From Gammaproteobacteria bacterium (GTDB taxonomy: Bacteria; Pseudomonadota; Gammaproteobacteria; Pseudomonadales; Azotimanducaceae): a stretch of DNA of 36,885 nt. Both the position numbers and the translations under genes were made by a program. Each line of letters begins with the position of its first letter. The first letter of the stretch is position 1. The notes beneath the pieces were generated by a model. The model was not told where the DNA came from. It worked only from the letters and a program-made list of their open reading frames with translations, and ran no database searches. The stretch lies in contig VXYL01000055.1 in NCBI GenBank assembly GCA_009846005.1, forward strand, positions 1 through 36,885, given 5' to 3'. This document shows positions 9,483-12,822 of this stretch, in pieces.

Positions 9483-10154
9483 CTACGCTACGCGCCGATA
9501 CGTAAGATCCACGACGCGACGGCCACCGGCGCGTCCCTTGGCCTCGAAAGCGGTGACGGGTCGTTCGACACGCGCGGACACACCGCCTTCCAATCCCGGT
9601 ACCGCCCGAAGCACGTCGACCATCTGCGCCGCGTAGTCCGCCCAGTCCGTCGCCAAGTGCAGCGTTCCACCAACCACGAGGCATGCGGCGACCGCCTCCG
9701 CGAACGCAGCATTGACTAGACGTCGCTTGTGATGCCGTTTCTTCGGCCACGGGTCCGGGAAGAATGCGCTGACGCGACGTGCGGTGCCGGGTTCGAGCCG
9801 ATGCAGAAAGTCCAAAACCTCCGCGTCCGCGATACGGACGTTGTCGAGGCCGTCCCGTTCGCAGGCGAGCATGAGGGCACCGAACCCGGGCCGGTAGATG
9901 TTGACGCCCAGGCAGTTCCAAGTCGGATGGGATTTGGCGAGATCCGCCACCGCGGCACCGTTGCCGAAACAGGTCTCGATGGCCAACGGGCCGTCACGAC
10001 CGAAAACCTCCCGCCAGAAGTCTGCGCCAATCCCTGTGTCGGGTAGATCGACCAGATAGCGATCGGTCAACTCGTCGAGTGCGCGCGCCTGCGCAGCCGT
10101 CAGTCGTCCTCGGCGACGAAGATAGGCGTGCTGCGGCGCGGCTGCCCGGCTCAA
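9483..10154 (-). CDS. trmB: tRNA (guanine-N7-)-methyltransferase TrmB
   Basis: SAM-dependent enzyme (223 aa) making m7G46 in tRNA. N-terminal [17 protein letters not shown], motif I Glu60 in [10 protein letters not shown]110 in IADAEV, and the signature [16 protein letters not shown] with Asp134, then [10 protein letters not shown]. The family motif GIEVHxPGVG reads [10 protein letters not shown] here, so the usual SAM-ribose Glu is Asn85. Start TTG 10154 overlaps the rpoH stop as TTGA; the conserved N-terminal region needs a start this far upstream, so coupled reinitiation from rpoH is likely. Confidence 0.94.
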
Positions 10155-11017
10155 GCCGCTTCGGCGACCTCCATGTGCTTGCGGAGTTTCTTCATCGCGC
10201 TCTGCTCGAGTTGGCGGATGCGCTCCGCCGAAACGCCGTAGCGGTGCGCGAGTTCGGTCAAGGTTTCCTTGTCGTCGCGCAGCCAGCGCGACTCGAGAAT
10301 GTCCCGGCTGCGTCCGTCCAAGGTCTTGATGGCATCCGCGAGGTGCTTCGAAGCAGCCTTTGAGGCATCTTCCTCGACGACGATGTCGGCGGGATTGGAT
10401 GTCGTGTCTTCGAGATAGAGCGCAGGGGCCGGCGGCGCTTCGTCGGCATCGTCGTTCGGATAGCCGTCGAAGGCCAAATCCCGGGACGACAGGCGACCCT
10501 CCATTTGCGTTACCGTTGCCGCCGGTACGCCGAGGTCATGCGCAATGGCCCGGGTCTCGGCATCGTTCAACCAGCCAAGCTTGTTCTTCCTGCTGCGCAG
10601 GTTGAAGAAGAGCTTGCGCTGCGCCTTGGTGGTCGCGACCTTGACGATGCGCCAGTTGCGGAGAATGAACTCGTGCATCTCGGCACGGATCCAGTGCACC
10701 GCGAAGGACACCAGGCGGACGCCGACCTCGGGGTCGAACCGGCGCACGGCCTTCATGAGACCGATGTTGCCTTCCTGGATGAGATCGGCCTGGGATAGTC
10801 CATAGCCCGCGTAGCTACGGGCGAGATGCACGACGAAGCGCATATGGCAGAGCACGAGTTCCCTTGCCGCCTCGAGGTCTTGTTCGTAGTAGAAACGTTC
10901 CGCGAGGGCTCGTTCATCCTCGGCGCTCAATACCGGGAACGCGTTGATGGTCTGGATATAGGCTTCCAAGTCGCGGCCCGGCGACAGGCTCGCTAGGGAA
11001 AGTACCTTGGTGCTCAT
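10151..11017 (-). CDS. rpoH: RNA polymerase heat-shock sigma factor RpoH (sigma-32)
   Basis: Alternative sigma factor (288 aa) directing RNA polymerase to heat-shock promoters. Region 2 is visible at [20 protein letters not shown] with [20 protein letters not shown], the RpoH box at 133-141 (QRKLFFNLR), and region 4 with [20 protein letters not shown]. The RpoH box separates it from RpoD and RpoS. ATG 11017 is preceded by GGAGGGA. It lies next to ftsEX as in E. coli and Pseudomonas, but 181 bp of non-coding DNA with a CIRCE operator precedes it. The stop overlaps the trmB start. Confidence 0.97.
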
Positions 11018-11092
11018 ATCGTCCCTCCGCTACCTTGTGCGTCTGCCCGTCAAGCGTGGCAAGAACGCTACCGTTGGTAACACTTAGACCCG

Positions 11093-11122
11093 ATCTTAGC
11101 ACTCTTGTTCCGAGAGTGCTAA
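11093..11122 (-). promoter_or_regulatory. CIRCE operator overlapping a candidate rpoH promoter
   Basis: Bases 11096-11122 read TTAGCACTC-N9-GAGTGCTAA, a perfect 9-9-9 inverted repeat identical in design to CIRCE, the operator of the HrcA heat-shock repressor. On the minus strand, TTAGCA (11117-11122) and TAAGAT (11093-11098) are 18 bases apart and could be the -35 and -10, so HrcA binding would cover the promoter. It lies 79 bp upstream of the rpoH ATG. ftsX ends upstream on the same strand, so rpoH is the only gene start it can serve. Confidence 0.85.
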
Positions 11123-11198
11123 CAGGAGATCCCGGTCTCCGATGCCGGCTCCAGCAACTTAAGCGATGCCAAACGCGTCGTGCCGGCGGCCGCCCGCA

Positions 11199-12149
11199 CT
11201 ACGCCAAACCCATGCGGTCAAGCCGTTGGCGCGAAGCAGCAGCCGCCCCAAGAACGCCCAAAACAGCACCGGCCGCCAGCAGCATCACATGAAAGATGGG
11301 GTCGAAACCGGCGAGTTCCAAGTCCCTGCCGTAGCTGGCGAACAGCCGCACGAGCGGCCCTTCGAGGAGCAGCAACAACCCCGAGACCGCCATCGCGGCA
11401 ATCACCGCGCCACCCAACCCGTAGACCGCCCCAAGGTACAGGAACGGTCGCCGCACGTATGCCCTGCCTGCGCCGACCAGCGTGAGCACCTTGACTTCCT
11501 CCAAGCGCGATTCAATCGCCAAGCGAACCGTCGCACCGGAGGTCAGGACTGCGCCAAGTCCGAGGATCGCCGCCAGCGACCAATACAGGCGGATCACGAT
11601 CTCGCGAACCGCCCCAAGCCGTTCGAGCCAACTCCGCTCCACGACGACATCCGCGACGCCGTTCGCCCCGGCTGCTTCCTCGGCAAGCCTTGCCACGCCG
11701 TCCGTCGATACCGTGGCATTGACCGTGGCGCGAACGCTGGCCGGCAACGGATTGTCCTCCAAGAGCCCCAGGGCATCGCCAATACCCGACAACTCCCGGA
11801 ACTCCGCAAGGGCTTCGTCGGGCGTCATGAGCCAGACGCGTTCGACGCCATCCATGGCTTGAAGGCGCTTGGCGAGGGTCTGCGGCTCATTGAGCGGCAC
11901 GCCGGGTTTGTAATATACCGAGAAGCCGAGATTCTCGCGCCATTGGCCAGCCGCCTGGCCGAGGTTCGCCTCCAGGAGGTAGAGGGCGGCGGGCACCGCC
12001 AAGGCGACTCCGATGGTCAGCCAGACCCATAGCGTCGTCGCGAACCGTCCCGTTACGTAGCTCAGGGTGTCTCCGACGACCCGCCCATGGTCGCGCCAAT
12101 ACGCACTCCACGGCCGGGACTCCGCCTGCCAGATCCGTACCCTAGCCAT
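11199..12149 (-). CDS. ftsX: Cell division protein FtsX
   Basis: Integral-membrane partner of FtsE (316 aa) that controls septal peptidoglycan hydrolysis through periplasmic activators. A cytoplasmic N-terminus precedes the first membrane helix (about 31-55, ATTLWVWLTIGVALAVPAAL). A periplasmic domain (about 60-180) contains LAEFRELSGIGDALGLLEDN. Three further helices lie in the C-terminal third, around LYWSLAAILGLGAVLTSGAT, YLGAVYGLGGAVIAAM and the final LLAAGAVLGVLGA. ATG 12149 overlaps the ftsE end by 8 bases; the same frame continues open inside ftsE but that part is not FtsX-like. Confidence 0.94.
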   Translation of the reverse strand: MARVRIWQAESRPWSAYWRDHGRVVGDTLSYVTGRFATTLWVWLTIGVALAVPAALYLLEANLGQAAGQWRENLGFSVYYKPGVPLNEPQTLAKRLQAMDGVERVWLMTPDEALAEFRELSGIGDALGLLEDNPLPASVRATVNATVSTDGVARLAEEAAGANGVADVVVERSWLERLGAVREIVIRLYWSLAAILGLGAVLTSGATVRLAIESRLEEVKVLTLVGAGRAYVRRPFLYLGAVYGLGGAVIAAMAVSGLLLLLEGPLVRLFASYGRDLELAGFDPIFHVMLLAAGAVLGVLGAAAASRQRLDRMGLA

Positions 12150-12822
12150 CGGCGCTCGTCCCCCCCTGCCCGACGATCCGGCCGTGGTCCAACTCCACCA
12201 CACGGCTGCCCATCGTGCCGACCAGTTCGGTGTCGTGGCTAGCGACGACGACGGTGACGCCGACATCGTGAAAACGACGGAACAGCCGAATGATGGTTCT
12301 CGACAACGTCGGGTCGAGATTGCCGGTGGGCTCGTCCGCCAGCAGGATCTTGGGGCGATTGACGACCGCGCGAGCAATCACGACCCGTTGGCGTTCCCCT
12401 GCGGAGAGCTGCGCCGGAAGAAGCCGCGCCTTGGCAAGAAGGTCAACGCTCCCGAGCGCCGCCCGAACGCGTCGCGCCATGTCCCGTGCCCTCGTCCCCG
12501 CCACGTGGAGCGGCAGCGCGACGTTGTCGAAGATACTGCGCCCGTCCAGCAGTTGTCCGTCTTGGAATACGACACCGAGATGCCGCCGATAGACCGGCAG
12601 ATGCCGGCGCTTTATTCCCGCGATGTCGACGTCGTTGACGAGGACGCTGCCGCGGGTTGGCGAATCCAACCGCAGAAGGAGGTTCAGAAACGTCGTCTTT
12701 CCCGCTCCCGAATGCCCGGTGAGGAAAGTCATCGACCCGGTCGGGATCGCGATCGATACATCCGAGAGCGCCTCCGTGCCGTTTTCGAAGCGCTTCACGA
12801 CGTGGCGGAATTCGATCCCCAT
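12142..12822 (-). CDS. ftsE: Cell division ATP-binding protein FtsE
   Basis: ABC-type ATPase (226 aa) of the FtsEX complex. Walker A GHSGAGKT at 36-43, Q-loop VVFQDGQLL, signature LSAGERQR (usual LSGGE carries Ala here), Walker B ILLADEPTGNLD and switch His in VVVASHDTEL. Length is typical. ATG 12822 lies 16 bases after the ftsY stop, giving the conserved ftsY-ftsE-ftsX order. Confidence 0.96.
   Translation of the reverse strand: MGIEFRHVVKRFENGTEALSDVSIAIPTGSMTFLTGHSGAGKTTFLNLLLRLDSPTRGSVLVNDVDIAGIKRRHLPVYRRHLGVVFQDGQLLDGRSIFDNVALPLHVAGTRARDMARRVRAALGSVDLLAKARLLPAQLSAGERQRVVIARAVVNRPKILLADEPTGNLDPTLSRTIIRLFRRFHDVGVTVVVASHDTELVGTMGSRVVELDHGRIVGQGGTSADG

Follow-up and report, generated by a model that had tools for sequence, protein, structure and literature searches.

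HrcA and sigma-32 are commonly presented as two separate heat responses. In Bacillus subtilis, HrcA loses activity when unfolded protein occupies GroEL. The groESL operons under HrcA and CIRCE share the operator consensus and spacing of the element described here, and the genome that carries this element has such a groESL copy of its own. The sigma-E-driven rpoH promoter P3 of E. coli and Pseudomonas aeruginosa resembles the putative promoter of the present locus in gene, promoter type and GAAC-to-TC distance. In P. aeruginosa the sigma-E that drives P3 is AlgU (PMC13104619). HrcA is mentioned nowhere in that paper (0 occurrences), and the E. coli control genome gave no HrcA match.

For Geobacter sulfurreducens, a perfect CIRCE at position -51 relative to rpoH was predicted in 2004 (Rodionov et al. 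2004, PMC545781, Table 8), so the wiring of CIRCE to rpoH is not new in kind. Like our genome, G. sulfurreducens has a perfect CIRCE before rpoH and a CIRCE before groESL, both identified computationally. However, it is a deltaproteobacterium, was one genome among those studied, and has CIRCE also before hrcA-grpE-dnaKJ, where none was found in our genome; no sigma-E promoter overlap is described in the accessible part of that report (PMC545781). Nor is CIRCE before rpoH reported in the accessible text of PMC13104619, PMC10696704, PMC11764788, PMC3224663 or PMC3989490. The sequence-only reading of this locus had left open whether such wiring was on record for related species; beyond the Geobacter prediction, no gammaproteobacterial report of CIRCE at rpoH, or of its overlap with a sigma-E promoter, was found in the literature searched, most of it open-access. 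A 2003 study by Permina and Gelfand, which reportedly treats heat-shock regulation in the beta-, gamma- and epsilon-proteobacteria, may already describe part of this pattern, which limits any claim that the class-wide rule and the sigma-E overlap are new.

We consider that the repeat before rpoH in the present genome is probably (at about 0.82) a functional HrcA operator governing rpoH through the promoters it overlaps. The sequences show the site, hrcA, the conservation of the site, its co-occurrence with hrcA and, in most relatives, its fixed register with the sigma-E-type motif; binding, repression, promoter use and, for this organism, the link to GroEL are inferences.

The CIRCE element between ftsX and rpoH

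In the window, that is, the whole 36.9 kb stretch of DNA analysed, the genes around the element run on the minus strand in the order ftsE, ftsX, a gap of 181 bp, rpoH and a trmB-like gene:

9483..10154, minus strand, trmB-like tRNA methyltransferase gene (TIGR00091, over cut-off)
10151..11017, minus strand, rpoH (sigma-32), the gene that the element would serve (TIGR02392, 396.8 bits, cut-off 323.1; NF005143, over cut-off)
11096..11122, minus strand, perfect CIRCE inverted repeat, a candidate HrcA operator (pattern match, conserved before rpoH in relatives)
11199..12149, minus strand, ftsX, start codon assumed (FtsX models match; TIGR00439 at 239.1 bits, under its cut-off of 255)
12142..12822, minus strand, ftsE (TIGR02673, 270.1 bits, over cut-off)

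Read in the direction of rpoH, from 11122 to 11096, the element is TTAGCACTC-TCGGAACAA-GAGTGCTAA, with TCGGAACAA as the spacer, and hence has 0 mismatches to the consensus TTAGCACTC-N9-GAGTGCTAA. It lies within the ftsX-rpoH gap, in the promoter or leader region of a heat-shock gene, and ends 78 bp upstream of the rpoH ATG. That an exact CIRCE stands at 11096-11122 had been read from the letters before, and it is the sole match in the window at three or fewer mismatches; none at this threshold arose in 100 dinucleotide shuffles of the window. On the strength of these shuffles, of the genome-wide scan and of the shuffled upstream sequences of both surveys described below, 0/2220 of which reach three mismatches, we rejected a chance origin of the match. 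Because ftsX lies upstream on the same strand, rpoH is the only start that the element can serve, as had been proposed; a second target on the plus strand was considered and rejected, the frame from 11166 being a mechanical frame opposite ftsX. The first 4 nt of the trmB-like gene coincide with the end of rpoH, so the tRNA methyltransferase gene is possibly co-transcribed with rpoH and under the same control. Among the best 80 matches listed, the named relatives of this RpoH are uncultured gammaproteobacteria and Pseudomonadales, the closest being the MAG UBA2168 (71% identity), a Pseudomonadales MAG (69%) and a K189A-clade bacterium (65%).

The genome (4.96 Mb in 106 contigs) has CIRCE at three or fewer mismatches at two sites, both perfect, one before rpoH and the other before groESL, whose groES and groEL were identified by Pfam; the reversed pattern, taken as a control, matched once in these 4.96 Mb. 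A single copy of hrcA is present (PF01628, E 2.4e-59), followed by grpE and then dnaK. The sequence-only reading had pointed to hrcA and to further CIRCE sites in the genome as its checks. The gene was there and so was the groESL site, but no CIRCE was found around hrcA-grpE-dnaK, at six or fewer mismatches in the surrounding 3.7 kb. Upstream of grpE there is instead a sigma-32-like GTTGAAA-N14-CGCCAT (11/13), and groESL has GTTGAAT-N13-CCCTAT (10/13) upstream of its CIRCE. Such matches recur in the window (three at 11 or more of 13 and thirteen at 10 or more, counting both strands), and the motifs at groESL and grpE are therefore suggestive only. The hrcA-grpE spacing of about 300 bp (L003:2214-2513) contains a sigma-32-like match and no CIRCE.

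By its letters 11096-11122 is an ordinary CIRCE; its interest is in its location and in its overlap with a putative sigma-E-type rpoH promoter.

CIRCE at rpoH and hrcA across relatives, order and class

A set of 29 near-relative genomes, the window's included, gave readable DNA before rpoH in 28 (in L013 the contig ends there), and CIRCE with three or fewer mismatches was found in 19 of the 28. Fifteen other genomes of the window's own genus were drawn; with the window counted, 13 of the 15 readable genus members have the element at this threshold, in 8 of them perfect, and the repeat is hence conserved before rpoH in close relatives, one of the two points, with the presence of hrcA, on which the earlier proposal had staked itself; both came out in its favour. 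In G011 and G086 the sole CIRCE at two or fewer mismatches sits before rpoH, with none found before groESL, and G016, G017 and G021 are among the genomes with a second RpoH-like protein (46-53% identity). Of the best 80 named RpoH loci listed, 17 have CIRCE at three or fewer mismatches, Alcanivorax, Ketobacter and Halieaceae among them, and in the culturable Alcanivorax jadensis the element is perfect, starting 92 bp upstream of the rpoH match; the Pseudomonas and Enterobacterales loci named in the same 80 have none at rpoH, their best matches showing at least six mismatches.

For the order, 145 genomes were drawn, of which 142 have rpoH (E 1e-90 or better) and 42 have hrcA, and in all 142 the 350 bp upstream of the rpoH match were searched for CIRCE at three or fewer mismatches. 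It is present in 40 of the 41 genomes with hrcA (the window included; 26 perfect) and in 4 of the 101 without it. For the class, 107 genomes were taken, one per family, of which 79 have hrcA and 98 have rpoH (E 1e-60 or better). Six of the hrcA carriers gave no rpoH match and 72 had both genes, the window being left out; where several RpoH exist (G191, G241) the best was used. Upstream DNA was analysed for these 72 and for 8 genomes lacking hrcA, 17 further hrcA-less genomes with rpoH not being included. CIRCE at three or fewer mismatches precedes rpoH in 66/72 with hrcA (37 perfect) and in 2/8 without; two of the six hrcA-carrying genomes that have no site (G195, G258) keep a lone right half. 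The Fisher values, uncorrected for kinship in both surveys, are 1.6e-29 for the order and 7e-5 for the class. Within families f17, f22 and f44, mixed for hrcA, the site is present with hrcA and absent without it among the sampled members.

CIRCE at rpoH thus tracks hrcA, with exceptions, over a broader range of genomes than the sequence-only reading had supposed. The single hrcA-carrying genome of the order survey that misses the site is G113. It belongs to genus g17 (same family), where both G113 and G159 (L257, L258) have hrcA and have lost the CIRCE at rpoH; in both, RpoH has diverged further (55% and 54% identity) and its gene has no recognised ftsX upstream. A paralogue as the cause of the G113 exception was considered and rejected, as a looser search (E 1e-40) gave one RpoH and inspection by eye of the 1.5 kb upstream showed no ftsX. 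The four order genomes with CIRCE at rpoH and no hrcA are G033, G099 and, in genus g19, G145 and G096. In the last two (L254, L255) the element has 0 and 1 mismatch, no hrcA was found, and three genus-mates have hrcA; either an assembly gap or a recent loss would explain them.

Candidate promoters overlapping the element

In the sigma-E consensus, a GGAACTT-like -35 is paired with TCnnA as the -10, some 17-18 nt away from GAAC. Against this and the sigma-70 pattern, the following candidate promoter elements were identified at the site:

11105..11111, minus strand, sigma-E-type -35 within the spacer of the CIRCE, GGAACAA (GGAAC at 11111-11107; offset +11 from the CIRCE start)
11084..11088, minus strand, sigma-E-type -10, TCTAA, 18 nt after GGAAC
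11117..11122, minus strand, sigma-70-like -35, TTAGCA, the first six CIRCE bases (weak, 4/6; below the scan cut-off)
11093..11098, minus strand, sigma-70-like extended -10, TGC-TAAGAT, the CIRCE end plus three bases (4/6 in the hexamer)

The GGAACAA matches the sigma-E -35 at 5/7, and sigma-E initiation some 7 nt downstream of TCTAA would place the rpoH transcript start near 11077. The combination GAAC-N17/18-TCNRA occurs seven times in the 36.9 kb window, on the two strands together, which makes a chance match in the rpoH gap unlikely but possible. A candidate for the cognate sigma factor is encoded in the genome: rpoE is over its cut-off (TIGR02939, 291 bits), with the anti-sigma gene rseA (RseA_N) adjoining. 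The RpoE model has 21 matches in the genome, one of them over the cut-off, which points to many ECF-type sigma factors. Of the other sigma-E genes of this genome, rpoE was checked for the motif: there is one loose sigma-E-type match, GAAC-N17-TCGGA, 144 bp before the rpoE match, and 9/500 shuffles also have one, which leaves the sigma-E motif poorly calibrated for this genome.

The sequence-only reading had also placed a plausible -35/-10 pair inside the repeat, most likely TTAGCA (11122-11117) and TAAGAT (11098-11093), 18 bp apart. The pair is visible and, with its TGn extension, matches TTGACA/16-18 nt/TATAAT at 8/12, but it is weak, and a promoter scan of 10900-11300 gave no sigma-70 site over the cut-off; the sigma-E-type elements match better. 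CIRCE could nevertheless act on a sigma-70-type housekeeping promoter of rpoH only, with the sigma-E-type letters of the genus being either fortuitous or a promoter no longer in use. In favour of this are the hexamer TA[AG]N[AC]T that ends the site, after the right arm, in 101 of the 112 rpoH CIRCEs of the two surveys, the absence of GGAAC, and so of the window-type sigma-E motif, from four of the 15 genus members (G004, G009, G014 and G015, the last with three mismatches in its CIRCE), and the register of GGAAC-N18-TCTAA in the window, which differs from that of most relatives. On the other hand, GGAAC is kept in 11 of the 15, with TCNAA at the same 18 nt in all 11 while some neighbouring spacer letters vary; the same spacer register recurs in G179, a genome of another order; and transcription of rpoH by sigma-E from P3 is established in P. 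aeruginosa, where the factor is AlgU (PMC13104619, accessible part). Given these points, the rarity of the motif in the window and the weakness of the sigma-70 pair, we regard a purely sigma-70-type target as unlikely and favour an operator that overlaps promoters of both types.

The association of CIRCE with sigma-E-type letters at rpoH is wider than the window's register. In most relatives the sigma-E-type -35 (GAAC) starts 15-17 bp before the CIRCE, in 88/112 rpoH sites (order 41/44, class 47/68), which puts the -10 across the junction of left arm and spacer. Within the order, a GGAAC-like motif stands 15 or 16 bp before the CIRCE in 36 of the 40 genomes that have both hrcA and the element, and 17 bp before it in one more. 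GAAC is in neither register at 21/112 sites; G238, with GAAC in the spacer and a damaged right arm, was not counted as having the window-type layout. At groESL, by contrast, GAAC is found 15-17 bp upstream of CIRCE in 0/15 control sites, a narrow control with 13 from the window's family, which leaves unsupported the idea that this distance is a general feature of CIRCE. Similarly, the spacer starts with TAA, which CIRCE does not demand, in 44/112 rpoH elements versus 1/15 at groESL.

Loss of the element and the proposed circuit

Some members of the window's genus have hrcA and an impaired element. G006, G007 and G012, with 4, 3 and 4 mismatches in total, have a damaged left arm yet keep hrcA and the groESL CIRCE (two or fewer mismatches), so control of rpoH either can disappear or can operate without both arms intact. 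At the genus loci L011, L012 and L015 the left arm is damaged, the right arm is kept (with one change in L011) and so is GGAAC...TCGAA. The damaged arms would fit a relic, that is, a genome with hrcA in which the site at rpoH is no longer used. Against this, the repeat is perfect in the window and in seven other genus members, with the spacer identical in the five closest of these seven, and we consider a disused site in the present genome quite improbable. Traces of the element persist in hrcA-less genomes of the order. Seventy of the 101 have a [GT]GAAC[CT] motif with room to look for a decayed CIRCE, and at 15-16 bp from the motif one with eight or fewer mismatches was found in 19/70, including four near-intact, versus 1/70, 0/70, 0/71 and 2/69 at four control distances. 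A sigma-E-type motif (score of at least 10) is found in 47/101, against a shuffle mean of 1.0. The palindrome therefore decays while the motif persists without hrcA, and the promoter tends to outlive the operator.

This also bears on whether the palindrome is kept as the promoter itself, its left arm supplying the sigma-E -10 and its right arm the extended -10, rather than for HrcA. Promoter letters are indeed contained in the arms, parts of which are kept in some hrcA-less genomes; but with the repeat in 4/101 genomes without hrcA as against 40/41 with it, and the sigma-E-type motif persisting without it, the need for a promoter alone does not hold the repeat, and this explanation is very improbable. 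An effect of CIRCE on mRNA stability has been reported in Bacillus, and the perfect 9 bp inverted repeat could form an RNA hairpin in the rpoH leader (for mRNA stability or as a thermometer), but this has the slightest chance of all, as the repeat, judging by the promoter positions, would lie upstream of the likely start or be cut by it and so not be whole in the transcript, and its sequence is conserved beyond pairing and follows hrcA.

As a working HrcA operator, the element would function as follows. In the unstressed cell, HrcA on CIRCE would block RNA polymerase from the overlapping rpoH promoters, both the sigma-E-type GGAAC/TCTAA and the weaker sigma-70-type one made from the two CIRCE ends. 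Under folding stress, unfolded protein would occupy GroEL, HrcA would become inactive, and rpoH would be freed and sigma-32 made. Since HrcA would cover the rpoH promoters, sigma-32 would be under HrcA, which is what had been proposed for this locus; the presence of hrcA, the conservation in the genus and the co-occurrence across order and class support this placement, from which we infer the repression itself. With CIRCE found only at groESL and rpoH, and grpE-dnaK behind a putative sigma-32-like promoter, HrcA would act directly on groESL and reach dnaK only indirectly, through sigma-32.

Our analyses suggest that, in most hrcA-carrying relatives sampled, one of the two classical heat-shock circuits sits above the other instead of running alongside it. 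We lean towards the further view that HrcA control of rpoH is the rule, and ancestral, in Gammaproteobacteria with hrcA, with the operator fused to the sigma-E promoter, and that the arrangement in E. coli and Pseudomonas is what remained after hrcA was lost. If HrcA does repress rpoH in most of these bacteria, the stack would include a feed-forward loop at groESL, reached by HrcA both directly and via sigma-32. It would also explain concretely how loss of hrcA could have produced the E. coli circuit, with a decayed CIRCE in place in some genomes that lack the gene. Through the overlap with a sigma-E-type promoter, a single short stretch of DNA would combine cytoplasmic folding stress, sensed through HrcA, with envelope stress, sensed through sigma-E, and HrcA would gate the envelope-stress signal reaching the sigma factor of the cytoplasmic heat-shock response.
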